From a virus, in the IMG/VR virus record IMGVR_UViG_3300009109_000194, positions 1 to 41,916 of that record: 41,916 nucleotides of DNA; one strand, 5' to 3'. The notes beneath the pieces are model-generated. The model was not told the origin of the DNA. It searched no databases and was given only the letters and a program-made list of their open reading frames with translations. Below, piece by piece: positions 1,333 through 38,045 of the stretch (position 1 is the first letter of the stretch; every line of letters begins with the position of its first letter). The position numbers were made by a program, and so were the translations under genes.

Positions 1333-1354
1333 TAGACAGGGCCCTAGAATAACG

Positions 1355-14989: not shown

Positions 14990-16154
14990 AATTCTCTCAA
15001 ATACTACGGCAACTAAATTCCAAGTAAGAAGAAAATATAGAGAACGTAAAGGTCCTTTATTAGAAAAAGATTATACATGTTGGTATCCACATCGTAGTCT
15101 AACAATTGATCAACTAGGAGAATGTTATATATGTACATGTGAAGCATGGTTACCTTATTCTGTTGGAAATATTTTAGAATTCGATGATCTTACCGACATT
15201 TGGACTAATAATATTGCTAGAAAACTCCAAAACAATACTAAAACCGGCACAACATTTAAATTTTGTGATACTTCAATTTGTAATCCGTGGTCAAAATCGT
15301 ATCAACAAGCAAGAGCGTTACCATATCAAATTGCAATTTGTACAGATGATAGTTGTAATTTGCGATGCCCTAGTTGTCGTACTGATCTGATTCATTTTAA
15401 TAAAGGTCCAATATACGAAAAAAGAAAATTATATACTGATAGAATTACATCGTTAATGAAAGACTTTGATCTACCTGTTTCGTGTGCTTTGGGTGGTAGT
15501 GGAGAGATTTTTAGTTCTAAAATTTTGTCTGATGTTTTGTATAATTATGAGCCAAATGATAAACATCGATTTAAAATTAAAACTAATGGAACTCTTATAG
15601 ATAACCGAGTTAAAGATAGTCCAATTATGCAAAAACTTTCAGAATTTACAATCAGTATTGATGCTGGGAGCAAATCAGTATATGATGTTGTAAGACCTCC
15701 GGCTAACTGGAATAAATTAAGATCAAATTTAGATTTTTTAAGGGAAAATAATTTTCAATTATCTTTTAATTTTGTCCTCCAAAAAGCCAATTTATATGAT
15801 GTAATTAATTTTGCAGATTTATGTGAGCATTATGGTGCTATAGGACACTATGAAGGTATAAATGATTGGGGTACATGGAATTACGAAACTTATTTAAAAC
15901 AAAGAATCCATCAACCTGAAGATGAATTATATTCCGAGTGGAATAAAATTAAAGAACAACTTCTTCAGCATTCATGGAGAGATTATTTAATATTTGCTTC
16001 TAATATTGATACAGAAAACCAATTTACATATGAGAGATTATATTCCAAACACCCAAACAAGAATTATTTACCGCTAGGATACAATGAAAATGATGGGACA
16101 TACCACAGTGAAAGACATCCGATGCTAGGTCTTAAATGGACATTAGATAATTAA
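14973..16154 (+). CDS. Radical SAM protein with N-terminal Cys domain, paralogue 5
   Basis: 393 residues. Radical-SAM triad CNLRCPSC at C128, C132 and C135; the glycine-rich strand is GGSGE (174-178) in place of GGEP; ISIDAGSKSVYDVVRP follows the SPASM-enzyme pattern. Before the triad are C36, C51, C54, C56, C98 and C103, again an N-terminal auxiliary cluster domain, but with a pattern different from the four proteins at the start of the window. The barrel is most like the MoaA/SPASM type. Very AT-rich. It overlaps the sulfotransferase-like gene by 17 nt and lies six bases before the large repeat gene. Substrate unknown. Confidence 0.87.
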   Translation: MLINRKILSNTTATKFQVRRKYRERKGPLLEKDYTCWYPHRSLTIDQLGECYICTCEAWLPYSVGNILEFDDLTDIWTNNIARKLQNNTKTGTTFKFCDTSICNPWSKSYQQARALPYQIAICTDDSCNLRCPSCRTDLIHFNKGPIYEKRKLYTDRITSLMKDFDLPVSCALGGSGEIFSSKILSDVLYNYEPNDKHRFKIKTNGTLIDNRVKDSPIMQKLSEFTISIDAGSKSVYDVVRPPANWNKLRSNLDFLRENNFQLSFNFVLQKANLYDVINFADLCEHYGAIGHYEGINDWGTWNYETYLKQRIHQPEDELYSEWNKIKEQLLQHSWRDYLIFASNIDTENQFTYERLYSKHPNKNYLPLGYNENDGTYHSERHPMLGLKWTLDN

Positions 16155-20235: not shown

Positions 20236-21358
20236 TTGCTGTTTCTATAATATAATCTTGTTGTTCGTCTGTTAAACTATGATAGCAAGGTAGACTTACT
20301 ATGCTATGAGCAACTCTTTCTGCATTTGGACAATTACCCGGATAATTTTCATAAGCAGGTTGTTTTGTCATTGGAACACGATAATGTACATTACATTGTA
20401 TGCCGTTATTGTTCATATAGCTTATAAAATCATCCCTGTATTGCTCAAGTAATGTACCAAAGTATCCAGGAATTTCCCGCATCATTATAACGTAAACATA
20501 CCAGGTATGTGTATTATCAGGAAGTGCTTGTGGTGTTACAAACTTATCTTGATCAAGCATTTCATTATATTTTGTGCATATTTCACGTTTACGTTCAAGC
20601 CAATTGGCCAAATAAGGTAATTTTGCCTCTACAATTTTTGCTTGTATGTTATCTATTCTAGCATTATAACCCATTGTGTGATATAACCACTTATCATTCC
20701 TGCCATGATCTCTATACATTCGTGCCTTGTCAATTAGTCCTTTCTTGCCAGTAATAGCACCAGCGTCACCCATCGCACCTAAATTTTTAACAGGATTAAA
20801 ACTAAAACAAGTTAAGTCTACTAAATTACCAACACGTTGTCCTTTATATTTTGCACCAAAACTTTGTGCGGCATCTTCAATTAACCGCAAGCCATGATAA
20901 TCGTCACTAGAATGGTTATCTACTATCTCTTTTAGTTTATCAATATCTGGTGTTTGCCCATAAGTGTCTACAAACAATATTGCTCGAGTCTTAGTGTTTA
21001 TTGCTTCTTCTACTTTGTTTACATCAATTAAATAATTATGGTCTATATCCACAAATACAGGAGTAGCACCTACTTGTAAAATTGCTTCAGCCGTGCTTAC
21101 AAAAGTATGTGGTGTAGTAATTATTTCTTGTCCGGTCCAGTCCAATTGAAGTGATAACAATGCACACAATAAAGCAGTTGATCCACTACCTGTTGAAGCA
21201 CATGCTTCAGCACCTGTGTATTCTGCCATAACGTTTTCAAAATTATCTGTTACTGGACCAGTAATAAAATGACTGCCGTCTATACAATATTGTATAGCGG
21301 CGTCTATATCTTCTTTTGCTTCAATATATTGACTTTTAAGATCTGTAAAAGGAATCAT
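20225..21358 (-). CDS. DegT/DnrJ/EryC1-family sugar aminotransferase
   Basis: 377 residues, full length. Visible motifs: ACASTGSGSTALLCALL (PLP phosphate region), TTPHTFVSTAEAILQ, IEDAAQSFGA (D162 and Q165 contact the cofactor) and SFNPVKNLGAMGDAG with the Schiff-base lysine K191. These PLP enzymes aminate keto-sugar nucleotides using glutamate or glutamine. Beside the WlbA-like gene it probably carries out the C3 amination (WbpE/WlbC-like). Overlaps: 11 nt with the dehydrogenase gene downstream and 23 nt with the SDR upstream. No acetyltransferase is visible nearby, so the last step may be done by the host or differ. Confidence 0.9.
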   Translation of the reverse strand: MIPFTDLKSQYIEAKEDIDAAIQYCIDGSHFITGPVTDNFENVMAEYTGAEACASTGSGSTALLCALLSLQLDWTGQEIITTPHTFVSTAEAILQVGATPVFVDIDHNYLIDVNKVEEAINTKTRAILFVDTYGQTPDIDKLKEIVDNHSSDDYHGLRLIEDAAQSFGAKYKGQRVGNLVDLTCFSFNPVKNLGAMGDAGAITGKKGLIDKARMYRDHGRNDKWLYHTMGYNARIDNIQAKIVEAKLPYLANWLERKREICTKYNEMLDQDKFVTPQALPDNTHTWYVYVIMMREIPGYFGTLLEQYRDDFISYMNNNGIQCNVHYRVPMTKQPAYENYPGNCPNAERVAHSIVSLPCYHSLTDEQQDYIIETANGF

Positions 21359-22325
21359 CTTTATCTCTTAACCATTCCCAAGTATCAACAAACCCTTCTT
21401 CAATGTCTATTATGGGATCATATCCGAGTAAGTTTCTTGCTTTAGTATTACTACATGTGCCACGTTTACCAAACGCTTCGTTATGCTCTGCTATTTTTAT
21501 TTGACTATTGCTGTTAGTTACTTCAATTGCTACTGTTGCCGCTTCAACTAGAGTGCGGCTTCTTTCTCTTGTAATGTTGAATGTTTCATCAGCGGCCCTA
21601 TCGTTTAATACACATTGCACCATACCTTTTATAAAGTCATCCATGTGTGTAAAGTCTATACTTGAGTCTCCATTAACATATATAGTTTCATTGTTTGCGG
21701 CCTGCAATAAAAATTTCGGAACAACTCTGTCTATTATATCACGTGGTCCATATACAGCACTCGGACGTACAATAGTATATTCTACATTGTGTTCGTTACA
21801 GTATCGTTTAACAATGCCTTCACTCGCTAGTTTTAATATACCATAATCGCTTTTGGGTTGCATTTGATTCCAATCTTCTCTCATGCCATAAAAATGTCCG
21901 CCTGATGGCCAATCACCATATACCATACTGCTACTAACGTGGATAAATCGTTTAATGATACCTTGACTACCATATAATAAATTGTATACGCCTTTAACAA
22001 GGGAGTCGCAAGCCATTACGGGGTCATATTGTACTAATTTTACGCGAGAGAATGCCGCTAGGTTAACTATAATGTCTGGTTCGTATTTCTCTATTACCCT
22101 AGCAATACCTTTAGTGTTTTTAATATTTTCGTGTACAGGTGCCCGTAGTTTAGTTTGACTCATAAACTTTTGGCGATTAGAGGTCGTTATCCAAAACTCT
22201 CTAGGAGGGATTACGCCGTAATCAGTCTGTATATCTACAATAAGGATAGAGTGGCCAAGTGTTTCTAGTGCAACGGATAAATTATGCCCTATAAACCCTG
22301 CGCCACCAGCAATTAGTATTTTCAT
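21336..22325 (-). CDS. NAD-dependent epimerase/dehydratase (extended SDR)
   Basis: 329 residues from the ATG at 22325, which overlaps the thyX stop as ATGA; an upstream TTG (22331) is less likely. GGAGFIG at 7-13 binds NAD; SSSMVYG at 131-137 and Y161-x3-K165 form the catalytic triad; IVRPSAVYGP follows. The fold and length match sugar-nucleotide epimerases and 4,6-dehydratases. An unusual 30-residue segment (PREFWITTSNRQKF) follows the first beta-alpha unit. It makes an operon with the aminotransferase and dehydrogenase, so it probably supplies or epimerises their sugar nucleotide. Substrate not inferable. Confidence 0.88.
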   Translation of the reverse strand: MKILIAGGAGFIGHNLSVALETLGHSILIVDIQTDYGVIPPREFWITTSNRQKFMSQTKLRAPVHENIKNTKGIARVIEKYEPDIIVNLAAFSRVKLVQYDPVMACDSLVKGVYNLLYGSQGIIKRFIHVSSSMVYGDWPSGGHFYGMREDWNQMQPKSDYGILKLASEGIVKRYCNEHNVEYTIVRPSAVYGPRDIIDRVVPKFLLQAANNETIYVNGDSSIDFTHMDDFIKGMVQCVLNDRAADETFNITRERSRTLVEAATVAIEVTNSNSQIKIAEHNEAFGKRGTCSNTKARNLLGYDPIIDIEEGFVDTWEWLRDKDDSFYRS

Positions 22326-23224
22326 AGCCAAGTTGATTTAAATTCATTAAGGTCCCTTTTACTTATACCATATTTTTTAGCAACGCCGTCTTCGCCTCTA
22401 AAATCCTCTAATATGTTAAGCCACTTTTCTTTATCAATTAGTCTTTTAAGTATATCAACTTCCATTCTGCTTAAAGTGTGTGCGTTTTCTATAAAATCTT
22501 CATATGCTTCAGAGGCAATTGGAAACTTTTCTTTGACTAAACTATACATTGTGCGAGCAAGTTCTTGTATTTCCCACTGAGCGTGTTCATCCGCTCGTAG
22601 TTTGGTGTAATGGAAAAAGTTGTTTAAGTCTATTTTCCAATATAGTTCTGTGTAGTTGTTAAGTGGCAACACGATACGAGACAGTTCCCTAGACAAGCCT
22701 TGGCGATCTACAAAGTTATAATTGTCGTTCGGGTGCTCTCCTAAAAGACTTAAATAATCGTCGTAGTTTGATGCACCAATACGTTTAATAGTATTAAAGC
22801 ACATCTGCTCTTCCATAGGAGGTAGTTTACCTCCGCGGCCTTGCTTGTTACTTGTACTCTGTGGCTTTAGATTGTCTCTATTTGGGATATAGAATTCGTC
22901 TGACATAACACTATATCTTCCAGAGTACTCGTTTAAGTTTGCTGTCCTATGTCGTACGTGTTGCCTCATAACGAAGATAGGCATCTTTAAGTGGAACTTA
23001 ACTTCGCACATTTCTACGGGAGATGTATGTTTGTGCTTAACTAGATATCTTATTAATGCTCTATCGTTTCTAGTTCCTTTGGTACCCTTACCATAAGAAA
23101 CACGGGCCGCTTGGACTATCGACTCATCAGTTCCCATAGTGTCTATGAGTCCTACGAAGCCGTGGTCCAAATACTTTACATAGTTTGTACTGCTTTCAAA
23201 ATCAATGTCATTAACTTGTGTCAT
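22322..23224 (-). CDS. thyX: Flavin-dependent thymidylate synthase ThyX
   Basis: Methylates dUMP to dTMP with methylenetetrahydrofolate, NADPH and FAD. 300 residues, typical of longer phage and bacterial ThyX. The signature RHRTANLNEYSGRY at 91-104 is clear, and the downstream FAD/dUMP region (RQGLSRELSRIVLP, then NFFHYTKLRADEHAQWEIQ) is intact. It is part of a minus-strand run, with ATGA overlaps at both ends (upstream small gene and downstream SDR). Common in marine phages, where it supports DNA replication. Confidence 0.95.
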   Translation of the reverse strand: MTQVNDIDFESSTNYVKYLDHGFVGLIDTMGTDESIVQAARVSYGKGTKGTRNDRALIRYLVKHKHTSPVEMCEVKFHLKMPIFVMRQHVRHRTANLNEYSGRYSVMSDEFYIPNRDNLKPQSTSNKQGRGGKLPPMEEQMCFNTIKRIGASNYDDYLSLLGEHPNDNYNFVDRQGLSRELSRIVLPLNNYTELYWKIDLNNFFHYTKLRADEHAQWEIQELARTMYSLVKEKFPIASEAYEDFIENAHTLSRMEVDILKRLIDKEKWLNILEDFRGEDGVAKKYGISKRDLNEFKSTWL

Positions 23225-25331: not shown

Positions 25332-25555
25332 CCGAATATTAACCCTACTATGTATATAGTAAGAACGCCAAAATTTAATAGGAAAAGACTAGGTTCTCGC
25401 CATAAAAGACTAACAATAGTCCACAGAGCGTTTGCTAATAGAAATACATAAATGTATAATGGATGTATATTAAACGCCGCCAGTAAAGAACCTATTACTA
25501 ATACTGATGACGCGGTCCACGCTAAGACTTGGTAAGGTTTTCTAGTGTTCGCCAT
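25328..25555 (-). CDS. Small membrane protein
   Basis: 75 residues from the ATG at 25555; an upstream TTG (25567) would add four residues and is less likely. Three hydrophobic stretches are visible: VLAWTASSVLVIGSLLAAF, PLYIYVFLLANALWTIVSLL and LFLLNFGVLTIYIVGLIFG, so it is probably a two- or three-span inner-membrane protein. It overlaps the phosphomannomutase gene by 34 nt. It could be a small nicotinamide-transporter-like or holin-like protein; length and topology fit neither uniquely. Confidence 0.7.
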   Translation of the reverse strand: MANTRKPYQVLAWTASSVLVIGSLLAAFNIHPLYIYVFLLANALWTIVSLLWREPSLFLLNFGVLTIYIVGLIFG

Positions 25556-26247
25556 GTATGTTCCCAATCCTCTATGTGGTATACATAATCTCTATTAAAC
25601 GGATCGGGCATACGCCGCCTCCACAATGCTTCTGCTAATGTATAGTCATTGCCTCCTTCTTCCATTCTGTCACCAAAGAATGTGATAGGAGTATTGTCAA
25701 AATCACGTAGTATTTGTGACTTATCCATACCAAGTTGTGCTATGTCTAAACCAGTCTCACCACCAACTGTTGCATATACTTCTTCAAACTGTTTATTAAA
25801 CTGGTCCGCAATGCGATATCTTTCACGGGTTCGTTTATCATATTTGACATACTCTCTGCGTTCTTCACTGTTCGCATTGCGTCCTACTATGCTAAAGTTA
25901 AGCATACCTGTGCGGTATTCAAAATGATTGCCAGTGCGTAACGGAAAATTACTAACTGCTAGGTGTGCCGACAACCATTTCTCTTGCTCATCAGTTATCC
26001 TAAACTCATTATGCCATACTTCTACACCATTTTCCCATACACTACTACCTGAGCAGTTATAGCATCGCTTAATAGCATTGATTATATCCTCTCCTACTTG
26101 TTCTAGTGTTTTAGGATAGTCACTACCAGTAACTAAATGTACTTCGTGGCTTAAACAAAAGTCTATAAACCACTTTTCAAACGTGGGGTCAATTTTACTC
26201 CTGCTAGGAGTTAATGTTCCATCTACATCAAAAATAAATGCTCTCAT
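25522..26247 (-). CDS. Eukaryotic-type phosphomannomutase (HAD superfamily)
   Basis: 241 residues, the length of eukaryotic PMM (about 246). Motif I FDVDGTLTPSR at 6-16 with the two catalytic Asp; the TGSDYPKTLEQVG segment; RTGMLNFSIVGRNAN in the substrate cap; GGETGLDIAQ; and the magnesium motif ITFFGDRMEEGGNDY. These are the marks of the PMM branch of HAD proteins, not of a generic phosphatase. It converts mannose-6-phosphate to mannose-1-phosphate, the precursor of GDP-mannose. In context it could feed glycan synthesis. It overlaps the methyltransferase gene by 4 nt. Confidence 0.86.
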   Translation of the reverse strand: MRAFIFDVDGTLTPSRSKIDPTFEKWFIDFCLSHEVHLVTGSDYPKTLEQVGEDIINAIKRCYNCSGSSVWENGVEVWHNEFRITDEQEKWLSAHLAVSNFPLRTGNHFEYRTGMLNFSIVGRNANSEERREYVKYDKRTRERYRIADQFNKQFEEVYATVGGETGLDIAQLGMDKSQILRDFDNTPITFFGDRMEEGGNDYTLAEALWRRRMPDPFNRDYVYHIEDWEHTWRTLENLTKS

Positions 26248-29849: not shown

Positions 29850-31139
29850 TTATGACATGTGGGTTTCGTAGTAAGCATGGGCACCAAACGGCGGTACCGG
29901 TGCTCCTTCAATGCGGTGAGTGTGTATTATAAAACAAGTGTCACAATACTTCTCATCGCCCCATGAACCCCACGGATAACCATCTGTGAACATAACTAAC
30001 TTCTTAGGTTCAATGGCATTCTCTTTTAGATACTCGTATACTGCTTCAAAAGAAGTTCCACCGCCACCAACTATTTCATAACTGTGAATGTCATGTAAGT
30101 TGTCGGCAGTAAAATCCGCTTCATTATATACTTCAGTATCAAAGCAGAAGACCTTAATGTTAAACGTAGTGTAGGCGTCCATAATGCCTTTAATCTCTGA
30201 GAGGAAATCACGCACCATGTCTTCGCTTATGCTACCGCTAACATCAATAGCAACTACTAAATCAATCGTTTCGTCTGGAACCATACCCGGCAACATAACG
30301 CCCGTATGCCACGCCTTGCGATTGGGTCGCATCCAACTAAAATCACTTTTAATGGTGCTCTTAATTTGGACGTCCAACAAATCCCGCCAGTTCATTTTGG
30401 GCTCGGTTAATTCCTTAATCATCCGAGCAACACCAGCAGGAATATTTCCAGCACCAGCAGTCTGTGCGGCACTGAGAATTGCTTCTTTCATTTCGTCCTT
30501 AATCTCTTTACGCTCTTGGTCGGAAAGGACTGGCCGATCACCTGCGCCCTGCTCATCACCACTGCCACCACCCTCACCATCATCATCAAGGTGGTCGTCA
30601 AGGACTTTGTCGAGCAGATCTTCTATGTCAATCTTCTCAACATTTTCGTATAAGTCGTCATATACTTCTTCAAACGACTGGCCGTAGTATTTGGAATCGT
30701 GTATAATGGGAACCACATCAATTGGCTCACCAATTTTGTGCTGTATCAAATCACCATTTACGCAGTAGTCTGCGGCAATGTTTGATAACTGCCCATCACG
30801 CTCGCCTCTGCGACCAATGTGATCATACACTACGTGAAGGACTTCGTGCCCAAACAGAAACTCTATCTGTTTCGGCGATAATTGTTTCAGGAACTTCGTG
30901 TTATAGTAAAACCTACGGCCATCTGTAGCGGCGGTAGGCAACCATCTATCAGCATTTACGAGTGTCAGGCGTGTAGCCAAATTACCGAAAAACGGCTCTT
31001 TGAGCAACAGCCCAATTCGTGCTGTAGTAAGGGACTCTCGAATTTCTTTATCAAGATCCCAGTCAGTTTCAAACCCAATCTCTAGATTAGGATTCTTTGC
31101 TAATTTGCTATCAGCGGTAGTTGAACTTGGGGAGGTCAT
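29850..31139 (-). CDS. VWA-domain protein with N-terminal HExxH-like motif (DUF2201-like)
   Basis: 429 residues. The N-terminal domain has FLFGHEVLHVVYDHIGRR (His-Glu-x-x-His at 98-102), as in putative metallopeptidase-like DUF2201 proteins. An acidic linker (HLDDDGEGGGSGDE) follows. The C-terminal von Willebrand A domain has the MIDAS motif VAIDVSGSIS (D299, S301, S303), GGGGTSFEAVYEYL and MFTDGYPWG. It forms the classic pair with the MoxR ATPase at 31277-32404: such pairs act as chaperone-like assembly machines. Marine T4-like phages carry them, though their target is unknown. Its own promoter lies at 31169-31222. Confidence 0.88.
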   Translation of the reverse strand: MTSPSSTTADSKLAKNPNLEIGFETDWDLDKEIRESLTTARIGLLLKEPFFGNLATRLTLVNADRWLPTAATDGRRFYYNTKFLKQLSPKQIEFLFGHEVLHVVYDHIGRRGERDGQLSNIAADYCVNGDLIQHKIGEPIDVVPIIHDSKYYGQSFEEVYDDLYENVEKIDIEDLLDKVLDDHLDDDGEGGGSGDEQGAGDRPVLSDQERKEIKDEMKEAILSAAQTAGAGNIPAGVARMIKELTEPKMNWRDLLDVQIKSTIKSDFSWMRPNRKAWHTGVMLPGMVPDETIDLVVAIDVSGSISEDMVRDFLSEIKGIMDAYTTFNIKVFCFDTEVYNEADFTADNLHDIHSYEIVGGGGTSFEAVYEYLKENAIEPKKLVMFTDGYPWGSWGDEKYCDTCFIIHTHRIEGAPVPPFGAHAYYETHMS

Positions 31140-31168: not shown

Positions 31169-31222
31169 ATTATAGCATTTATCTGCTAATCTGTCACGGA
31201 AAATAGTGCTGTAAGTGCTTGA
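31169..31222 (-). promoter_or_regulatory. Sigma70 promoter with upstream box, for the VWA gene
   Basis: Minus strand: extended -10 TGCTATAAT (core 31169-31174), 17-bp spacer, -35 GTGACA (31192-31197), and the 11-bp box TCAAGCACTTA (31212-31222), whose inner edge is 14 bp from the -35. The predicted transcript starts about 22 nt before the VWA ATG. The box and spacing recur in two other promoters of the window. Confidence 0.75.
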
Positions 31223-31225
31223 ATT

Positions 31226-31265
31226 GGCAGGCAGTACTGAGGCATTGCGCCCGTTCCTGCCTGCC
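31226..31265 (-). terminator. Stem-loop after the MoxR gene
   Basis: GGCAGGCAG (31226-31234) pairs perfectly with CTGCCTGCC (31257-31265) around 22 nt; the loop has GGCATTGCGCCC, also found in the terminator at 34631-34653. It lies 11 nt after the MoxR stop. The following minus-strand sequence (AATTCAAGC) is not T-rich, so it may be an mRNA-end protector, a weak terminator or an anti-read-through element. Confidence 0.5.
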
Positions 31266-31276
31266 TCCCAAGTATC

Positions 31277-32404
31277 CTATGCCTCCATTGCCGAAATGAC
31301 GTATTTTCCAAACCGCTTGTGGAACTCATCAAACGACTTGAGTTTACCAGGCACTAGCGGCAGGTTGTAGTTCGTAAGGGCCATTTTCGCGCCCATTACC
31401 GTCACCTCTGTAAGGAAGTTATCCATCATGAAACGGAAGAAGTTGTCGCACATTGCATGCCATTCCTTACCAGGATTCTGCTTCTTGGCCTTCTTGTAGG
31501 AATCACGCAACTCGTAACACATCGAGATGGTTAGCGAGTACATTGCAGACACTTCTTTCACTTCAAGTTTGGTCACCGTGCCGTCAAGTATATCTGACGG
31601 GTTGGGCAATTTGCCTGAATGCTTTCGGTGAGCGTTAAACTTGACAGCCAGGCCTTCACCAACCGTACCAGCAACCAAGTCTGTGATTTCGCTCTCCGTC
31701 ATATCCGGATCGCCATCTTCTTCCTGAAGTAACTCACTCACAAACACCCAGGATCGCGGTGTGGCAAACGAGCGTTCGTTGCTACCCGCATCAAAATTGT
31801 AGAGATCGTTCTTTGAGAAGGTCAGGTAACCCAACACATCGGGATGAATCTGATGTTCAACTGCCCACTCCTGCCACGTATCAAAATCTGCGGACACTTC
31901 AACATGGACGAAACGGTTTGCCAACGGGGAGGGCATTCTGTAAGTGACGCCACGGTCAGTCTCACGGTTCCCTGCCGCTACGATAACACAGTTATCGGGC
32001 AATTTGTAAGTACCAATTCGTCCGTTGAGCACCAACTGATAAGCGGCGGCCTGAGTTGCCATCGGAGCAGAGTTTAACTCGTCCAAAAACAATATGACGA
32101 TGTCGTGTTCTGCGGCCTGTTCCGCTGTGGGAAGATCCACAGGGTGTGCCCAGGACATTGTATTCGCGGCCTGGTTGTAATACGGAATACCACGCAAGTC
32201 GGTGGGTTCCATCAAAGCCATACGCAGGTCGATAAGCCAACCATTCTTAAAAGAGCCAGTAATCTGCTCCATAAGGTCACTCTTACCAATGCCTGGCGGC
32301 CCCCATACAAATATTGGTCGCTTCCGCTTCATTGCGCGGCGGATTGACTTCTCCGCTCCACGCAGGGTGACGGTGCGAACTTCGGCTTGTGCTGATTGTG
32401 CCAT
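31277..32404 (-). CDS. MoxR-family AAA+ ATPase
   Basis: 375 residues. Walker A GPPGIGKS at 35-42, Walker B ILFLDEL at 104-110, a sensor-1 AAGNRETDRG block and SPLANRFVHVEV with the arginine-finger region. It contains the ATPase core and a C-terminal lid, and lacks a second AAA module. MoxR proteins work with VWA partners; its partner is the gene immediately downstream (29850-31139). AGAGGAAAAAC precedes the ATG. The gene is visibly GC-richer than the left half of the window, suggesting different codon selection or origin. Probably assists virion or host-complex maturation. Confidence 0.9.
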   Translation of the reverse strand: MAQSAQAEVRTVTLRGAEKSIRRAMKRKRPIFVWGPPGIGKSDLMEQITGSFKNGWLIDLRMALMEPTDLRGIPYYNQAANTMSWAHPVDLPTAEQAAEHDIVILFLDELNSAPMATQAAAYQLVLNGRIGTYKLPDNCVIVAAGNRETDRGVTYRMPSPLANRFVHVEVSADFDTWQEWAVEHQIHPDVLGYLTFSKNDLYNFDAGSNERSFATPRSWVFVSELLQEEDGDPDMTESEITDLVAGTVGEGLAVKFNAHRKHSGKLPNPSDILDGTVTKLEVKEVSAMYSLTISMCYELRDSYKKAKKQNPGKEWHAMCDNFFRFMMDNFLTEVTVMGAKMALTNYNLPLVPGKLKSFDEFHKRFGKYVISAMEA

Positions 32405-32425
32405 AGTTTTTCCTCTTACTTGGGT

Positions 32426-32836
32426 TTACAAAATGCCTTTCCGCCCAGCGGAATAGCCTTTGAGATAAACGGTGCCATACTCATTTACACAACTGGCACC
32501 AATATCTTCTGCGAAAATATTGCCACGGACACCATTTTTCACGGGAGCCTTCCAACTACCCTTCAAAATGTCGCCGTTCTCCATATTCACGAACGTGTGA
32601 ACAGTAGTCTGGCCGTACTCAACTCCAGTGTTCTCTTCGCCAACAATGTCAGGATCGCCATTTTTCCAGTGACGGTGCATTGTAACGACTTTCGCGTATT
32701 TCTTGCCAAAAATGACGTCAACTTCGTTGGAAGGACCATGGGTGTATCCCATCAATTTCCAGTAATTGTCATTCATGGTTTGGACCATACTTACATATTC
32801 AACTATGCGGTCCATCATTTCTCGTTCGGGTATCAT
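32426..32836 (-). CDS. Conserved phage protein upstream of MoxR
   Basis: 136 residues, not recognised by function. An N-terminal helical half (MDRIVEYVSMVQTMNDNYW) and a beta-rich second half with VHTFVNMENGDILKGSW and NGVRGNIFAEDIGASCV, a pattern I associate with small marine-phage proteins that follow an early promoter. Cytosolic, GC-richer than average. The promoter at 32875-32927 directs it, with a ribosome site AGGAACC. It is probably the first gene of a moxR transcription unit (21-nt gap). Confidence 0.75.
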   Translation of the reverse strand: MIPEREMMDRIVEYVSMVQTMNDNYWKLMGYTHGPSNEVDVIFGKKYAKVVTMHRHWKNGDPDIVGEENTGVEYGQTTVHTFVNMENGDILKGSWKAPVKNGVRGNIFAEDIGASCVNEYGTVYLKGYSAGRKGIL

Positions 32837-32874
32837 ATACTTGGGTTCCTATTGATTCCTTAACTTGTTCTACT

Positions 32875-32927
32875 ATTATAGCAGATTCCTGTCAGAAGTC
32901 TACCTTTTTGGGCCGATAAGTGCTTGA
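32875..32927 (-). promoter_or_regulatory. Sigma70 promoter with upstream box, for the MoxR unit
   Basis: Minus strand: extended -10 TGCTATAAT (core 32875-32880), 16-bp spacer, -35 TAGACT (32897-32902), and upstream box TCAAGCACTTA (32917-32927), exactly 14 bp from the -35 element. Same layout as the promoters at 31169 and 37943. It lies in the 165-nt gap shared with the divergent gene at 33002. Confidence 0.78.
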
Positions 32928-32977
32928 TTTCATTGATTTTTCACATTTTTTTAAGTCATTGATTTTAAAGGCTTTTT
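32915..32977. repeat. Intergenic repeat, copy 1 (about 62 bp)
   Basis: Plus-strand reading begins TAAGTGCTTGATTTCATTGA and ends TTGATTTTAAAGG. It aligns along its length, with one indel, with 37983-38045. Each copy holds two box-like sequences about 35 bp apart; here the second is degenerate (TAAGTCATTGA at 32952-32962). It lies upstream of the promoter at 32875 and ends 25 nt before the divergent gene at 33002, so it may control both directions. Confidence 0.75.
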
Positions 32978-33001
32978 TCGATCTGGGTAAATATTGATGT
33001 T

Positions 33002-33724
33002 ATGACACAACAGATCTGGGTTCACGACAGGCTCGATGAAGCATTGCCATTCTGTGTTCAGACCATAGGCAAGAATGGTAGTACTCGATTACACAAGTGG
33101 CTAAACCATTACGAATTTACAAATGCCCGATGGGATTTTGTCGGCAATCACGATATCTATAAGCATTTTCCTACCTATGTTTTTATACAAGATCCTATCG
33201 ATAGATTCGTAAAAGGATTCGCTGAACTAATTAGTAATTTGCGGCCTGCTTATGATGTAGGTTCACAAGCAGGAGATCCTACCAATATAATAGCATCACC
33301 AGCATCAGAGCATGTTAATATTAAGGAAGTATTAAATAAAATGCCTACAGATGCTGTAGATGCATTTTTATTTCATTTTCTTCAACATTTAGATATGTAC
33401 ATGCGTGATTATCATCTTAAATTACAGATTAGTATATTAACATCATTGTCTAGTTTTAATTTAGAATATGAAGTATTAAAGATAGACGATATAGATAACT
33501 TTCACAATATAGCTAAAGAAAAACACGCCCAACATTTTGCTGAGCGTGTTGATGGACATGCTAATGGATTAATACCTATTGATCCAGAGCGTGTAGAAGA
33601 TTCTGACCGCCAATTTATAGAAGATCGTGTTCACAAAATCTTAGTTGACCATTTAGATGGTGAACTCTCGGCTATCCGAGAGTATCTCTTACCTGATTTG
33701 GGTTTGTGGGATCTTCTTAATTAA
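33002..33724 (+). CDS. Sulfotransferase-family-2-like protein
   Basis: 240 residues. QTIGKNGSTRLHKWL at 20-34 resembles the 5'-phosphosulfate loop, and YVFIQDPIDRFVKGFAELI at 59-77 strongly resembles the RDPVERFVSGF 3'-phosphate motif of carbohydrate sulfotransferases, except that the usual Arg is Gln (Q63). This weakens the case for PAPS binding. The rest is helical. It is an isolated plus-strand gene that starts in the divergent gap with the MoxR unit and overlaps the convergent gene by 8 nt. The sequence GGTAAATATT lies before the start, but I see no convincing promoter. A short GC hairpin is inside the 3' end (33665-33682). Confidence 0.65.
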   Translation: MTQQIWVHDRLDEALPFCVQTIGKNGSTRLHKWLNHYEFTNARWDFVGNHDIYKHFPTYVFIQDPIDRFVKGFAELISNLRPAYDVGSQAGDPTNIIASPASEHVNIKEVLNKMPTDAVDAFLFHFLQHLDMYMRDYHLKLQISILTSLSSFNLEYEVLKIDDIDNFHNIAKEKHAQHFAERVDGHANGLIPIDPERVEDSDRQFIEDRVHKILVDHLDGELSAIREYLLPDLGLWDLLN

Positions 33725-34211
33725 TACACATTCCTTTAAATGATTCGCACTCCCATGCCCACCAGTGATTTGCCCTTTTTGGGTCACCAGTATCTCTATC
33801 AAAAGGAATATCTATATTAGATGTTTTCGAAATATGTTTATAAGCATCACGTGGTATTGCAAAATAGTAAAATTTATTTTGCTTGCGTTCGTAAACTTGA
33901 ATACGTAGTGTACCAGTTTTTCCGGAAACGCTTGTTATTGGAGCGCCGTATTGTCTTCCATAATTATGTGTTCGAGCAGATGCCATTTTACAATCAGAAC
34001 CATCACTTAAATCTGCCTGATCTTCTGATATAACTTTATACTTGCCTACTTTTGCCACAGCGTTTTCAAAACAAGTACTAACCTCTAATAGACCGCCTTC
34101 TAATAGCAATCTTACTGTTTTCTTATCATAACTGCGCCACTTTGGTAGATACTTCATGAAATTTTTAAAATGGGCAATTTCTAAATGAAGGACATCGCCT
34201 TTTGTTGCCAT
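33717..34211 (-). CDS. Unknown conserved phage protein
   Basis: 164 residues. Helical first 40 residues, then a long beta-rich part with SDGSDCKMASARTHNYG and TGTLRIQVYERKQNKFYYFAIP, followed by DAYKHI and a Trp-rich end (ANHWWAWECE). The RIQVYERKQNKFYYFAI block looks like a beta core of a small endonuclease-like or RNA-binding fold, but I cannot name it. It is the last of a short minus-strand run and overlaps the convergent sulfotransferase-like gene by 8 nt. Confidence 0.72.
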   Translation of the reverse strand: MATKGDVLHLEIAHFKNFMKYLPKWRSYDKKTVRLLLEGGLLEVSTCFENAVAKVGKYKVISEDQADLSDGSDCKMASARTHNYGRQYGAPITSVSGKTGTLRIQVYERKQNKFYYFAIPRDAYKHISKTSNIDIPFDRDTGDPKRANHWWAWECESFKGMCIN

Positions 34212-34296
34212 AATATTTCGCTAATGTGGCGTGTTGTCTTCTATTAAAGAAAAACGTGTAATGCCATTACTAACATTACGAGACACAATGCTTCCA

Positions 34297-34599
34297 TTAT
34301 TTTATCCGTGGATCAACTTGCATGATGTGGACGTTATCTTTTTCATCTCTTCGTACTGAGATTGTTTTGCCGTTCCGTACTGCATAAGAATTAGCGGCAC
34401 TATACGCGGCACATCCACCACCTATATCCCGTCTCTTTGAACTTGGGTCACTTGCTGGAACTGTGAAACCATATCCAGGACCTTTATCAAAAACCGCCTC
34501 CATCTGGCGAGACCATTTACCTCTTGAGCGACCCCTAATCGGAGGAAAATCACTCGGCTTCATTTTCTTGACTTTATAAACTACTTTTTTATTTGGCAT
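34297..34599 (-). CDS. Unknown small basic protein
   Basis: 100 residues, Lys/Arg-rich N-terminal half (VVYKVKKMKPSDFP, RGRSRGKWSRQM), then GFTVPASDPSSKRRDIGGGCAAYSAANSYA and a C-terminal beta region (KTISVRRDEKDNVHIMQVD). Possible nucleic-acid binding, no named family. It is visibly GC-richer than the left half. The gap to the upstream gene holds a good terminator (34620-34653), so it would need its own promoter, which I do not see, or read-through. Confidence 0.72.
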   Translation of the reverse strand: MPNKKVVYKVKKMKPSDFPPIRGRSRGKWSRQMEAVFDKGPGYGFTVPASDPSSKRRDIGGGCAAYSAANSYAVRNGKTISVRRDEKDNVHIMQVDPRIK

Positions 34600-34619
34600 T
34601 ACTATTACCTGTTGTTAAA

Positions 34620-34653
34620 ATATGAAAAGTATGGGGGGCATTGCGCCCCCCAT
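34620..34653 (-). terminator. Rho-independent terminator after the wHTH-like gene
   Basis: ATGGGGGGC (34631-34639) pairs perfectly with GCCCCCCAT (34645-34653) around a 5-nt loop; on the minus strand the hairpin is followed by ACTTTTCATATTTT, a T-rich tract. It starts 9 nt after the stop of the gene at 34663. The core GGCATTGCGCCC is shared with the hairpin at 31226-31265. Confidence 0.85.
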
Positions 34654-34662
34654 GATTGTTGC

Positions 34663-34917
34663 TTACGCAGAACCGTTAGCAATAGCGCGGTAACCGGCGC
34701 CAACTACGGCACGAGATGCCGTACCCATTCGATACTTCGAACTTGTGCGTCCTTTCGTATCAACACGGGTGTTGGTATAGACCGGGTGGCCTTGGAAACG
34801 AAGACTCTGAATCAGAGCGCCTGGGTTCCCAACATTCCAACGAGCAGAGATCTGCTTCGCGGTAAGTTCCTGGCCTTCCTGTAGTGCTGAAAGCACCTTT
34901 GCTGTTTTGGTTGTCAT
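34663..34917 (-). CDS. Small wHTH-like DNA-binding protein
   Basis: 84 residues. VLSALQEGQELTAKQISARW and NPGALIQSLRFQGHPVYTN look like a winged helix-turn-helix with a recognition helix and wing, followed by the basic KGRTSSKYRMG segment and a small C-terminal helix. I recall close relatives in marine T4-like phages. It is preceded by AAAGGAGTCAT and a strong sigma70 promoter (35000-35028) and ends at an intrinsic terminator, so it appears to be a highly expressed single-gene unit. Probably an early regulator. Confidence 0.75.
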   Translation of the reverse strand: MTTKTAKVLSALQEGQELTAKQISARWNVGNPGALIQSLRFQGHPVYTNTRVDTKGRTSSKYRMGTASRAVVGAGYRAIANGSA

Positions 34918-34965
34918 ATATGACTCCTTTCAAAATGGCAGATTAAGGGCCCGCCTTTCCCTATC

Positions 34966-34978
34966 CCACATAATGTGG
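34966..34978. promoter_or_regulatory. Palindromic operator-like site
   Basis: CCACAT-A-ATGTGG, two perfect 6-bp arms around one base, between a strong promoter (35000-35028) and the wHTH-like gene. Its position just downstream of the expected transcription start suits a repressor site, and autorepression by the adjacent gene product is plausible but unproven. An mRNA hairpin is the alternative. Confidence 0.45.
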
Positions 34979-34999
34979 AAATCTTTATTACAATATACT

Positions 35000-35028
35000 A
35001 TGATACACGATCTAAGGTATATTGTCAA
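35000..35028 (-). promoter_or_regulatory. Near-consensus sigma70 promoter for the wHTH-like gene
   Basis: Minus strand: -35 TTGACA (35023-35028, perfect consensus), 17-bp spacer, -10 TATCAT (35000-35005). It lies in the 121-nt gap upstream of the gene at 34663-34917. It lacks the TCAAGCACTTA upstream box of the other three promoters, so it may be host-driven at once on infection. Confidence 0.85.
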
Positions 35029-35038
35029 GTGTTTTGTG

Positions 35039-35278
35039 TTATTCTTCGATAATGTCGACGTCTTTTATCGGAAGTACAAAAGTCCAACCTTTTTTGCTGT
35101 CCTTAACTTCATATACTTCTGTTTCGTAATCTACTGCAATTACAGTTCCTTCTCTCACTAGCACTTTCTCATTGGTAATGGGCACGTCAGCAAGCGAATA
35201 AAAACCGCCTGGTCGACCCCACTCATCTACAGGAAATAATTTCTTGTAGGTACATTTTGGTGTATCATAATCACTCAT
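35039..35278 (-). CDS. Unknown small acidic protein
   Basis: 79 residues. Beta-rich with VREGTVIAVDYETEVYEV and a C-terminal GWTFVLPIKDVDIIEE, suggestive of a small SH3-like barrel. No named family. It is the last gene of its unit, about ten bases upstream of a strong minus-strand promoter, and lies 9 nt downstream of an exported-protein gene. Confidence 0.7.
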   Translation of the reverse strand: MSDYDTPKCTYKKLFPVDEWGRPGGFYSLADVPITNEKVLVREGTVIAVDYETEVYEVKDSKKGWTFVLPIKDVDIIEE

Positions 35279-35287
35279 TATTTTCTC

Positions 35288-35866
35288 CTATTTTTCAAAA
35301 TCTGCAAAGTATTTCTGCCAAGTTTCCTTTGATTTTGCGTTGTCCTGAGTTAATTTCCCTGATTTCATACCATTGCCACTGTATTCAATATTTAGATAAT
35401 TACCCGGAAAAACAATATGTTGGGTATCAATGGGAACGCCATTTCCGCAAACAAAATAAAATGATGGCATATCAATTCGTTGTTCGCCTCGATGTATTTC
35501 CCAACATTTTATTTTCTTACCACTATTCCATTCCTTCCACTGCCTGCAATACTTGTCGTTTTCAAAAGTAACAGTTCCTTTTGACCAGTCCTTGCCATTT
35601 AATTTAGGCATCCAGCCAACAGTCTTTTTATTTGTAGGATAATAGATCGCAAAAGTGCCCCAACTATCAACTGATAGGAGAGTATTACCAGATAGAAGTT
35701 GTTCAATCTCGGCCGTGTTTAATTTTGTTTCTGCTTTGCCTCTCCACGTTACACCTTTTTCAGCGGTGCAATTATGTAGACGAGTGTTTTTGGCTTTTAT
35801 TTCATTTATGTCAGCAATTGCTGACATAGATAAAAGCAATGTTACTGCGAATAGTATTTTTTTCAT
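35288..35866 (-). CDS. Exported protein of unknown function
   Basis: 192 residues from the ATG at 35866. The frame is open 16 residues further upstream, but the extension overlaps the preceding gene and the signal peptide MKKILFAVTLLLSMSAIADI starts exactly at 35866, with GGGACTGATTAAC before it. Predicted cut after ADI or SAIA. The mature part is beta-rich with Trp and Cys pairs (HNCTAEKGVTW, KYCRQW, KKIKCWEI, YFVCGNG), so disulfides are likely. It is a candidate periplasmic phage protein (for example inhibitor, lysis or exclusion factor); family not recognised. Confidence 0.78.
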   Translation of the reverse strand: MKKILFAVTLLLSMSAIADINEIKAKNTRLHNCTAEKGVTWRGKAETKLNTAEIEQLLSGNTLLSVDSWGTFAIYYPTNKKTVGWMPKLNGKDWSKGTVTFENDKYCRQWKEWNSGKKIKCWEIHRGEQRIDMPSFYFVCGNGVPIDTQHIVFPGNYLNIEYSGNGMKSGKLTQDNAKSKETWQKYFADFEK

Positions 35867-35867
35867 G

Positions 35868-36092
35868 TTAATCAGTCCCTCTCCATTTAAGTTGAAATTC
35901 TTTGCGCGGACCATAGAGTTCGTTCTTCTCGTCCCGGCGTTGCTGTTCTTCTACTTCTTCAGAATTGAAGTCATCCGTATCTTCAACCATTTTAAATCCA
36001 AGATTAGAAAGATATTCAATCATTGATTGTGGATGAAACGAACACACTCGTTCGCCATACTCGTTATAAAAACCTGGTCCTTTATATGTCAT
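35868..36092 (-). CDS. Unknown small acidic protein
   Basis: 74 residues. N-terminal GPGFYNEYGERVCSFHPQS and a very acidic middle (MVEDTDDFNSEEVEEQQRRDEKNE). No known motif. The stop is two bases before the exported-protein ATG, and its start overlaps the stop of the 51-codon gene upstream (ATGA), so the run is coupled. Confidence 0.7.
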   Translation of the reverse strand: MTYKGPGFYNEYGERVCSFHPQSMIEYLSNLGFKMVEDTDDFNSEEVEEQQRRDEKNELYGPRKEFQLKWRGTD

Positions 36093-36244
36093 TGCAAACT
36101 CTCCAATATTTCGTCAATATCAAATGCGAGCACAGCATCCTCTGGGAGGGTATGCTCAATTGCAACTATGTCCTCATCGGACATTTCTGCCAGCTTGTCT
36201 TTAATAAACTCGCGTGTCATCCAAAATAATCGTTCAGCATCCAT
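36089..36244 (-). CDS. Small acidic protein, 51 residues
   Basis: Below a 60-residue cut-off, yet well supported. The ATG at 36244 overlaps the stop of the HAD gene (TAATG), and its TGA overlaps the ATG of the gene at 35868-36092 (ATGA), leaving no gap. The product starts MDAERLFWMTREFIKDKLAE and ends DAVLAFDIDEILESLQ; it is amphipathic, helical and acidic, with a repeating DEDI/DIDEI character. Function unknown; it could be a small inhibitor or adaptor. Confidence 0.78.
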   Translation of the reverse strand: MDAERLFWMTREFIKDKLAEMSDEDIVAIEHTLPEDAVLAFDIDEILESLQ

Positions 36245-36684
36245 TAAAAGTCTCCATTATCGACTTGAAATACGCGGAGTCCATTGCGTCTCCACATGTC
36301 CACAACTCTGTTTCTGTCGTCAAATGCCATTGTAGGATTGAATCCAAACTTCTTCATATCCGCAAGCATATTTTCTTTAACCTCAGAATCGGAATGGTAT
36401 TGTTCCCACATACCTCGGAACAATGCTAGGTCGTACTTAACACCAGCATCTTTTAATTGCTTGAGCGTCAAGTCTTTGTCTTGCTCAAGCCGCCCTGTGG
36501 AAATAATAATACGATGCCCTGCCTCTTTCAGCAATTTGGCCATCATCACGACATCCTTGTTGGGAGTGTCCCAGATCATGTCCGCACGAAAGGCTTTCCA
36601 ATCTTTCGGTTTTTGCTCAACATGATGGCGCCGATGGTCAATGTCCATCAGCGTCCCATCCACATCAAAGATGACATCTGCCAT
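36244..36684 (-). CDS. HAD-superfamily phosphatase, 3'-phosphatase domain of polynucleotide kinase type
   Basis: 146 residues from the ATG at 36684, two bases after the upstream stop; the frame is open 17 residues upstream but that part overlaps the GIY-YIG gene. VIFDVDGTLMDIDHRR at 4-19 carries the catalytic Asp pair, IIISTGR is motif II, and PTMAFDDRNRVVDMWRRNG is motif III/IV. The pattern, including KDWKAFRADMIWDTPNKDV, matches the phosphatase half of T4 PseT-like enzymes and related phage HAD proteins. No kinase domain (no Walker A) is present, so it may remove 3' phosphates at nicks or simply act on nucleotides. Confidence 0.82.
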   Translation of the reverse strand: MADVIFDVDGTLMDIDHRRHHVEQKPKDWKAFRADMIWDTPNKDVVMMAKLLKEAGHRIIISTGRLEQDKDLTLKQLKDAGVKYDLALFRGMWEQYHSDSEVKENMLADMKKFGFNPTMAFDDRNRVVDMWRRNGLRVFQVDNGDF

Positions 36685-36685
36685 A

Positions 36686-37129
36686 TTATTTCCCATTGAT
36701 ATTCCACACAGGTTTAAACCGTTTAAGTAGTGCATCTTCTTCCTGATCCACTAAATTAATTTCACGTGTAACCTGTTCTCCAAGTAACATATACGATTGT
36801 TTGATACTATCACAAACTCTTCCGTATATTTTAATCTCTTGCCCACTGTTGATTGTATCTCTTATCAGTTTCGCTTTATTGATCCCAGTGGCACTTCCTC
36901 CACGCCATCCTCCGCGATGTTCACCTAGTCGTTTATTGATGCCCTTACTAGCCATGCCTATGTAAACAACTGAATCGCCAACTACCCAGGCATATATTTG
37001 TCCTTGCGATAGTTTAAATTCTGGATCCTCTATCTTGTATTTGACTTCTTCTCCATCAAGATAGATACTGCCCGCCGGCCGGAAGGCGTACTCTTGTAAG
37101 TCTTGTAGCCGGCAGGAAGTAAATTCCAT
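36686..37129 (-). CDS. GIY-YIG nuclease-domain protein
   Basis: 147 residues. QIYAWVVGDSVVYIGMASKG at 44-63 matches the GIY...YIG pair with the first Gly-Ile-Tyr changed to Gln-Ile-Tyr. Then NKRLGEHRGGW gives Arg67, Glu70 and His71, and a later Glu in LLGEQVTREI could be the metal-binding Glu. It ends FKPVWNIN. The 40-residue N-terminal extension is unusual for the family. Possibly a homing-type or DNA-repair nuclease. It is in a coupled run with its neighbours. Confidence 0.75.
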   Translation of the reverse strand: MEFTSCRLQDLQEYAFRPAGSIYLDGEEVKYKIEDPEFKLSQGQIYAWVVGDSVVYIGMASKGINKRLGEHRGGWRGGSATGINKAKLIRDTINSGQEIKIYGRVCDSIKQSYMLLGEQVTREINLVDQEEDALLKRFKPVWNINGK

Positions 37130-37132
37130 TTG

Positions 37133-37456
37133 TTATATCTTCTCGAGCATCGTCCCCGGAACACGCCATGAGCCATACTGCCCGCAATCAACAACTACGC
37201 GAGTCCGTTTGACTTCCACAACATCGCCCGTCATCTGCTTCGGAACACGGCCACGGTTAGTCTTACGACCACTCGTTACCATAACACGGTCACCTGGCTG
37301 TAGAGCACCAATACGTGCCTTACCCTTGCGGCGGCGTGCCTCCATGACCAGTTTGCTTACAGCCTTCAACTGATCCATGTCCATTGCGTCAAAGTCCACT
37401 CGATGAAGAGCGTCGATTGCTTCTTTGTTTTTCTCTTGTTCGTTAAAGCCTTCCAT
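37133..37456 (-). CDS. Unknown small basic protein
   Basis: 107 residues from the ATG at 37456. A longer frame to 37501 overlaps the 53-codon gene and is not preferred. An N-terminal acidic helix (NEQEKNKEAIDALHRVDFDAMD) precedes a basic, KOW-like part with KLVMEARRRKGKARIGALQ, PGDRVMVTSGRKTNRGRV and MTGDVVEVKRTRVVVDCG, ending SWRVPGTMLEKI. The PGDRV-x-G-x-R-x-x-G pattern resembles small beta-barrel nucleic-acid-binding proteins (KOW/SH3). Ribosome site GGGG about ten bases upstream. Confidence 0.75.
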   Translation of the reverse strand: MEGFNEQEKNKEAIDALHRVDFDAMDMDQLKAVSKLVMEARRRKGKARIGALQPGDRVMVTSGRKTNRGRVPKQMTGDVVEVKRTRVVVDCGQYGSWRVPGTMLEKI

Positions 37457-37457
37457 A

Positions 37458-37619
37458 TTAATACCCCGTAAGTATCTTAAGGTTGATTTCATTTGCATCA
37501 CACATCTCGATAATCTCGTCGTTAGTCATCCACTTGGCGACCATTACTACGAAATTATCAGGATCCAGTAATCCTTCCTGTACTGCTTCACAAAGACGTT
37601 CACGTGCATCGCGGTCCAT
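37458..37619 (-). CDS. Small acidic protein, 53 residues
   Basis: Below a 60-residue cut-off. Its ATG (37619) overlaps the stop of the gene at 37619-37909 (TAATG), and its TAA at 37458-37460 is one base before the ATG of the KOW-like gene. It starts MDRDARERLCEAVQEGLLDP and ends CDANEINLKILTGY, helical and acidic. It fits the small-early-gene pattern of phages. The tight packing is the main evidence. Confidence 0.75.
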   Translation of the reverse strand: MDRDARERLCEAVQEGLLDPDNFVVMVAKWMTNDEIIEMCDANEINLKILTGY

Positions 37620-37909
37620 TAGAAGTACCTCACGCGAGTGGAATCTGTGTTTTCGAATATATCCGTTTTGTCGCGCCGTATACCGGGCAATGCTCCTTTC
37701 GGAACTTCGTTTTCAGTCAAGTAGCCAAATCCCTTGTAATTGCCGGAGTCCATAAGGACTTGCTCAACCATCAGCATCACGCCTTGTCGCCAGTAGCGAT
37801 CAACAGGAACGTATTTGCTTTCTACTTCGCTCCAACGCATGGACGCTTCAAGGGCTCGATTTGCTATACCCTTGACTTTTTCAACTTCGATTGTCTTTCG
37901 ACTTGCCAT
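37619..37909 (-). CDS. Unknown early protein
   Basis: 96 residues, basic and helical at the start (RKTIEVEKVKGIANRALEASMRW), then MLMVEQVLMDSGNYKGFGYL and a basic end with GIRRDKTDIFENTD. Function unknown. It is the first gene of a unit reading 37909 to at least 36686, downstream of the strong sigma70 promoter at 37943; GGAGCAAATAA serves as ribosome site. Confidence 0.75.
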   Translation of the reverse strand: MASRKTIEVEKVKGIANRALEASMRWSEVESKYVPVDRYWRQGVMLMVEQVLMDSGNYKGFGYLTENEVPKGALPGIRRDKTDIFENTDSTRVRYF

Positions 37910-37942
37910 TTATTTGCTCCAGTAAATTAGCATCATACCACT

Positions 37943-37995
37943 ATTATAGCAAATATAGACGAATTGTCTACTATTTTTGTGCTGTAAGTGCTTGA
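37943..37995 (-). promoter_or_regulatory. Sigma70 promoter with upstream box, for the small-gene unit
   Basis: Minus strand: extended -10 TGCTATAAT (core 37943-37948), 16-bp spacer, -35 TAGACA (37965-37970), upstream box TCAAGCACTTA (37985-37995) exactly 14 bp from the -35 element. The best match of the three. It drives the coupled run 37909 to 35288 or so. Confidence 0.82.
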
Positions 37996-38045
37996 TTCTG
38001 CTGGATTTTTAAGATTTTTGTAAGTGCTTGATTTTAAAGGGTTTT
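37983..38045. repeat. Intergenic repeat, copy 2 (about 62 bp)
   Basis: Plus-strand reading begins TAAGTGCTTGATTCTGCTGG and ends TAAGTGCTTGATTTTAAAGG. Two perfect copies of the 11-bp box are at 37985-37995 and 38021-38031, 36 bp apart. It aligns with copy 1 at 32915-32977. Repetition of the box suggests cooperative binding of a dimer or a pair. Confidence 0.8.

Follow-up and report, generated by a model that had tools for sequence, protein, structure and literature searches.

In bacteriophage T4, the MotA box of the middle promoters replaces the -35 element and lies at about -30, and in the late promoters of P2-type phages the Ogr/Delta site is centred at -55, where Ogr recognises a dyad. The PL promoter of lambda has an IHF site upstream. 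The early promoter Pe of phage Mu has also an IHF site upstream, and IHF counters there an H-NS-like silencing, according to PMC8501957. Here we describe, in a virus record of 41,916 bases (IMGVR_UViG_3300009109_000194, the window, to which all positions refer unless a contig is named), three promoters of the sigma70 type (P1, P2 and P3) which share an 11-bp box, TCAAGCACTTA, at one fixed distance upstream of the -35 element, and we propose that this box is the core of a candidate IHF site. The window is seen as a piece of a large phage because of its gene matches: an ATPase (31277-32404) with 48.5% identity over 94% to the ATPase of the jumbo phage PA5oct, and head-closure and polynucleotide kinase family matches among its genes.

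The exact box TCAAGCACTTA is found in four copies in the window, on the minus strand only, for 0.026 expected by a second-order Markov estimate. With up to two mismatches allowed, 21 matches are found for 16 expected, so that only close copies of the box are informative. The extended -10 element TGCTATAAT is present in three exact copies, which are those beneath the first three boxes. The statement of the original prediction, that three promoters share the box with a constant gap of 14 bp to the -35, is confirmed, since all boxes, -10 elements and gaps were found again. The features are the following:

31169..31177, minus strand: P1 extended -10 element, TGCTATAAT; 29 nt later begins the reading frame 29850-31139 (DUF2201/VWA, phrog_1314)
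31192..31197, minus strand: P1 -35 element, GTGACA, with the box 14 bp away
31212..31222, minus strand: P1 box, TCAAGCACTTA; preceded directly by T, where the IHF consensus has A
32875..32883, minus strand: P2 extended -10 element, TGCTATAAT; downstream, the frame 32426-32836 (136 aa, phrog_5014), then the ATPase
32897..32902, minus strand: P2 -35 element, TAGACT, with the box 14 bp away
32917..32927, minus strand: P2 box, with its flank AATCAAGCACTTA; full IHF consensus, with an A-run 10-14 nt upstream (GAAAAATCAATGAA)
32952..32962, minus strand: P2 upstream near copy of the box, TCAATGACTTA, with two mismatches, at 35 bp upstream of the P2 box; AATCAATGACTTA matches the IHF consensus
37943..37951, minus strand: P3 extended -10 element, TGCTATAAT; downstream, the frame 37619-37909 (96 aa; no PHROG or Pfam match)
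37965..37970, minus strand: P3 -35 element, TAGACA, with the box 14 bp away
37985..37995, minus strand: P3 box, with its flank AATCAAGCACTTA; full IHF consensus, with an A-run 11-15 nt upstream (TAAAAATCCAGCAG)
38021..38031, minus strand: P3 upstream tandem box, with its flank AATCAAGCACTTA; 36 bp upstream of the main box

All three are sigma70 promoters (-10 TATAAT, -35 at 16-17 bp from it) with a TGN extension and a weak -35. Since the gap of 14 bp is followed by spacers of 17, 16 and 16 bp at P1, P2 and P3, the box lies 37, 36 and 36 bp from the -10, constant within 1 bp. The -35 pattern TNGACN proposed earlier holds for P2 and P3 and does not fit P1 (GTGACA). A second box is found upstream in two of the three promoters, 35-36 bp from the main box; the tandem copy at 38021 had been reported, and is exact, but the near copy of P2 at 32952 had been overlooked.

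To see the promoters beyond the window, relatives were collected through the ATPase rather than through the box, which gave 12 loci; the box is present in the eight records searched among them (8/8), in two to five copies each. Six contigs were read whole, G001 and G003 from the ATPase search and G009, G010, G011 and G013 from box scans. The proteins of G001 that could be matched share 56-60% identity with their counterparts in G003, G009 and G010, 39% with those in G013 and 33% with those in G011. The largest relative, G001 (322,647 bp), holds four exact boxes for 0.22 expected; boxed promoters are found at 5563, 219044 (gap of 15), 265881 and 281709, and a fifth one near 52715 (box at 52757, gap of 14) has the poorer -10 TAGACT. 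A composite scan of G001 with gaps of 0-40 gives eight hits, six at gap 14, one at 15 and one at 19, and the further gene-proximal copies that the original prediction had called for do recur in such relatives. In the six whole contigs, with gaps of 0-45, the true box gives 39 hits, compared with 2 to 14 for each of 20 scrambled boxes. A scatter of spacings was sought with the same gaps; within the clade of G001, G003, G009 and G010 (four contigs) the gap is 14 in 18 of the 22 hits, two of these promoters being counted twice, once in G009 and once in G010, and the others are at 15, 10, 18 and 19. The boxed-promoter pattern is real, non-random and general within this phage group. As predicted, spacer and surroundings vary: in 16 distinct promoters of the clade, for which the box and gaps of 14-15 were selected, the gap sequences are 37% and the spacer sequences 39% identical, and recent copying therefore explains the fixed spacing poorly.

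The genes downstream of the boxed promoters of G001 include those for a complete DnaK, the VWA protein and small proteins mostly without family. The DnaK is a full-length phage protein behind the promoter at 5563 (L163:3609-5492; HSP70, E 6e-258). After a G001 promoter at 225812 a DnaJ-like N-terminus was recognised by eye, and L174:2004-4355 of the same contig is a Clp-type AAA protein. The start of the predicted transcript is conserved in G003, G009 and G010, with GTATATATACGCTAAAGAAA behind three boxed promoters and similar sequences behind several more.

The box goes mostly with a weak -35, a pattern as expected for the site of an activator. Among the 38 intergenic GAC-16/17-TATAAT sites of G001 and G003, each within 250 nt of a reading frame, the -35 is non-TTG in 10 of the 11 boxed and in 1 of the 27 unboxed promoters (Fisher 2.5e-7). 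In G009 and G010, excluded from the test as these contigs overlap, the corresponding values are 4/6 and 2/16, and the four clade contigs pooled give 14/17 boxed and 3/43 unboxed. Box-free TTGACA-N17-TATAAT promoters occur in the same genomes as the boxed ones. A second class without box (G001 L163-L179, G003, G009, G010, G013) has the form TTGACN-N17-TATAAT with an ATG 6-7 nt after the TATAAT, and is apparently leaderless, as the transcript would begin at the start codon. Nine of the 15 box-free G001 sites having an ATG frame within 40 nt are of this type, and no such leaderless-type site was found in the window.

Viral contigs at large were scanned for the box at 0-30 bp before GAC, followed by a -10, which gave 115 stretches, and 78 distinct boxed promoters were gathered across all loci. 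Of the 22 promoters with a -35 other than TTGAC, 18 have a gap of 14 (13/17 after a stricter de-duplication); the TGN extension is present in 6 of 13 viral gap-14 promoters. Before a TTGAC -35 (n=44, de-duplicated), the gaps are 7-9 in nine cases, 15-18 in 20, 25-28 in six and elsewhere in nine, with a period of about 9.7 bp (0/5000 simulations, for a uniform null and with relatedness only partly removed). In G013, five of the ten hits have gaps of 15-18 and the rest 25, 27, 30, 36 and 39, and in G011 TTGAC lies 6-7 bp downstream in 8 of 22 TCAANNAYTTA sites. Other lineages thus differ in register from the clade of the window, and individual phage lineages tend to hold their own; the boxes are common to lineages whose matched proteins are only 31-41% identical. 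A megablast of the window from 19000 to 41916 against phages found nothing, and a hand-made promoter query of 78 nt gave 192 records with partial matches only, none over more than 80% of the query (20 of the 192 were listed, at E 2). In the open-access literature, the exact box and its complement were found only in papers that seem unrelated by title, and no report of an IHF-driven promoter set of this kind was found, judged by the listings.

Which protein could read the box? The original prediction had proposed a bound activator or a modified RNA polymerase. The fixed spacing, the weak -35 and the conservation of the box in a diverged background support a helper protein; nothing was seen that speaks for a modified polymerase, for which no specific search was made, and the core promoters are ordinary sigma70. 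The best candidate on sequence grounds appears to be host IHF, which had not been considered earlier. The IHF consensus is WATCAANNNNTTR, and its affinity depends on the surrounding A/T elements; in the other orientation it is TAAnnnnTTGATW (both from PMC10380432). The flanked box AATCAAGCACTTA satisfies this consensus, and the boxes of P2 and P3 fit it in full. The plus-strand TGCTTGA, which had been likened to a MotA box at a place and orientation ill-suited to MotA, is part of TAAGTGCTTGATT at P2 and P3 and fits the IHF consensus in the other orientation; the bad fit to MotA is upheld, the box being at about -54 with a -35 present.

The flank of the box agrees with such a site. In 61 de-duplicated viral box promoters, W is present at -2 in 57 and A at -1 in 49, and an A/T tract that was not part of the query makes the motif bipartite, with W at -14, -13 and -12 in 55, 55 and 57 of them. 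A pyrimidine run is also found at -10 to -8 of the flank in these promoters (86 when bacterial hits are included). In the window, P2 and P3 have this A/T-rich arm, 12-14 nt upstream of the box; in the H' site of lambda, an A-tract lies at a similar place. When the box drifts, it does so mainly in the four N positions, which take up 18 of the 21 substitutions (p 5e-6; up to two mismatches, gaps 14, 15, 16 and 18). Neighbouring boxes form phased arrays: 16 of 26 pairs in the same orientation are at 34-36, 44-46 or 53-57 bp (periodicity p 0.0035), and the divergent pairs (n=17) are also periodic (p 0.0005), both for a null of uniform spacing and with best periods that differ (9.6 vs 11.5 bp). The shortest common distance, 34-36 bp, is about the size of an IHF footprint. 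The extended motif WWWN7WWAATCAANNACTTA was counted against its reversed control in two bacterial classes. In 143 genomes from the class to which a Thiotrichales genome belongs (Gammaproteobacteria) it gives 103 matches vs 32, and in 148 genomes from that of a Clostridium 52 vs 46; IHF is known from Gammaproteobacteria and is not known from the class Clostridia. An HU/IHF gene was found in none of nine different records (the control gave a match in 9 of 14), so that IHF would be a host protein, although the missing gene is weak evidence because virus records are fragments.

Taken together, we consider it probable that host IHF, with its core at about -54, supports the host sigma70 polymerase at dispersed promoters, compensating for a weak -35, probably early in infection. 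We infer from the sequences the protein, an activation over another effect, and the early timing, for which the host type of the promoters is the sole basis. IHF, a DNA-bending dimer, would bind so that the WATCAANNNNTTR core has its centre at about -54 and the A/T-tract arm lies at about -72. The bend would fold the upstream DNA back onto the polymerase, beside the stretch from about -48 to -35 that the alpha C-terminal domain usually contacts, and could so compensate for -35 elements such as GTGACA and TAGACT; the need to direct the bend towards the polymerase would keep the spacing constant. Between the box and the -35 lies an A- or T-rich stretch, and it is in such a stretch that the alpha C-terminal domain of the polymerase usually binds. 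Second sites one IHF footprint upstream would lengthen the wrap. The phage would in this way turn on a dispersed set of about eight operons.

More tentatively, large T4-like phages may use a host chromosome-architecture protein as the general activator of a gene set, in which case a phased IHF site or array, in a fixed register particular to each lineage, would mark the promoter class and set it apart from the box-free, apparently leaderless class of the same genome. The aid of IHF to single phage promoters is already known. A genome-wide set in one register, with other registers elsewhere, offers a natural experiment on the phasing that a bend needs if it is to aid the polymerase. If the proposal is true, these phages depend on a host nucleoid protein, and ihf mutants are predicted to hamper them. 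The boxed promoter could also serve as a marker for finding the gene set in metagenomes.

Several observations weigh against IHF, or against the generality of the pattern. In 28 of 28 matches from 11 of 17 records, partly preselected for holding the box (the reversed control gave one match), the third N is A, the fourth is C or T, and the box ends always with TTA, never with TTG. The third N position shows also zero substitutions in the drift set, in which the first two N vary. Because the box is narrower than the E. coli IHF consensus, a different protein is possible. GCAC, common in these phages, is present in only 2 of the 103 gammaproteobacterial sites. P1 has neither the A/T tract nor the A before TCAA, and carries a GC-rich hairpin (GGCAGGCAG/CTGCCTGCC) in place of the tract. 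The bare IHF pattern at gap 14 gives at least 74 distinct sites, which are heterogeneous and in many cases look unrelated; among those listed, GCAC is found in 8 and A at the third N in 47. In a 257-Gb collection of bacterial genomes, 20 stretches have the exact box plus promoter, compared with the 115 of the viral contigs, and this count is about at chance level. Six cultured relatives are without such a promoter, whereas the reversed control matches once, in one of the six. Two box pairs of G011 lie in gaps where no sigma70 promoter can be recognised at the expected spacing. The boxes of these pairs (43259/43305 and 137265/137219; L417, L421) are exactly 46 bp apart.

The other explanations are not mutually exclusive, and their likelihoods need not sum to one. 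The one that survives best, though unlikely, is that IHF keeps H-NS-like proteins off AT-rich phage promoters without contact to the polymerase, which is compatible with IHF helping the polymerase. The Pe promoter of Mu is a precedent (PMC8501957), and the intergenic arrays with several sites would suit such a role, but a register held to a single base pair is unneeded for it, yet gap 14 is kept in 18 of 22 hits.

Slightly less likely still is an activator other than IHF, encoded by the phage or an unknown one of the host, that would read TCAANNAYTTA at -54 and contact the polymerase like Ogr of P2. The conserved NNAY and strict TTA exceed the IHF consensus, a contact activator needs fixed spacing, and P2 and P3 have between them a gene for a winged-helix protein, HTH_39 (34663-34917). 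Against it, the flank tract, the phased arrays and the drift in the N positions agree with IHF, and an Ogr/Delta match was found in 0 of 7 records, which are fragments (the control gave a match in E. coli). HTH_39 is also absent from the 25 G001 proteins that have BLASTP matches in G010, G013 and G011 alike, a set whose smallest members have 145 and 150 aa, in which frames under 50 aa were uncalled and BLASTP may miss short diverged proteins.

A recent duplication, in which copies of a single promoter cassette spread through the genome and the spacing is inherited rather than constrained, is very improbable: TCTGCTNGATATG is shared by the spacers of three G001 promoters (281709, 265881, 52715) and nearly by a fourth (219044), but the 16 distinct clade promoters keep box and spacing with gap and spacer sequences only 37% and 39% identical, and other lineages have other registers. 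It is just as improbable that the box is a repressor or silencing operator holding the promoters off, since in the clade it lies well upstream of the -35 and mostly with a weak rather than a strong one, even if inverted copies overlap a TTGACA -35 in some other phages.

Further genes of the window deserve mention. Five radical-SAM reading frames lie at 4-5242 and 14973-16154; four of them were scanned with Pfam, and in these the SPASM-type match comes first and the radical-SAM match second, opposite to the usual arrangement, with radical-SAM scores below the Pfam cut-off. A eukaryotic-type phosphomannomutase match (25522-26247; PF03332, E 1.4e-28) is found near a nucleotide-sugar epimerase match (21336-22331).

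Compared with the known systems, the T4 middle promoters have in common with those described here a short box and a sigma70-type -10, in a phage with T4-like genes, but the box here has the other orientation and its centre at about -54, and it is accompanied by a -35; a search for the MotA C-domain gave 0 of 7 records, but its positive control gave a match nowhere. The T4 early promoters, with an UP element and an extended -10, resemble them by the extended -10 and the A- or T-rich stretch upstream of the -35, and differ in that an additional sequence-specific box stands here further upstream. The P2 late promoters share the site at about -55, the weak -35 and the fixed spacing, whereas the box here is asymmetric and, in the seven fragmentary records, without a matching Ogr/Delta activator. 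Pe of Mu and PL of lambda resemble them in that an IHF site, here a candidate one, lies upstream of a sigma70-type phage promoter. Those are single promoters of temperate phages, whereas about eight per genome are found here in large T4-like phages, with one fixed register, tandem arrays and a weak -35 as their own features.

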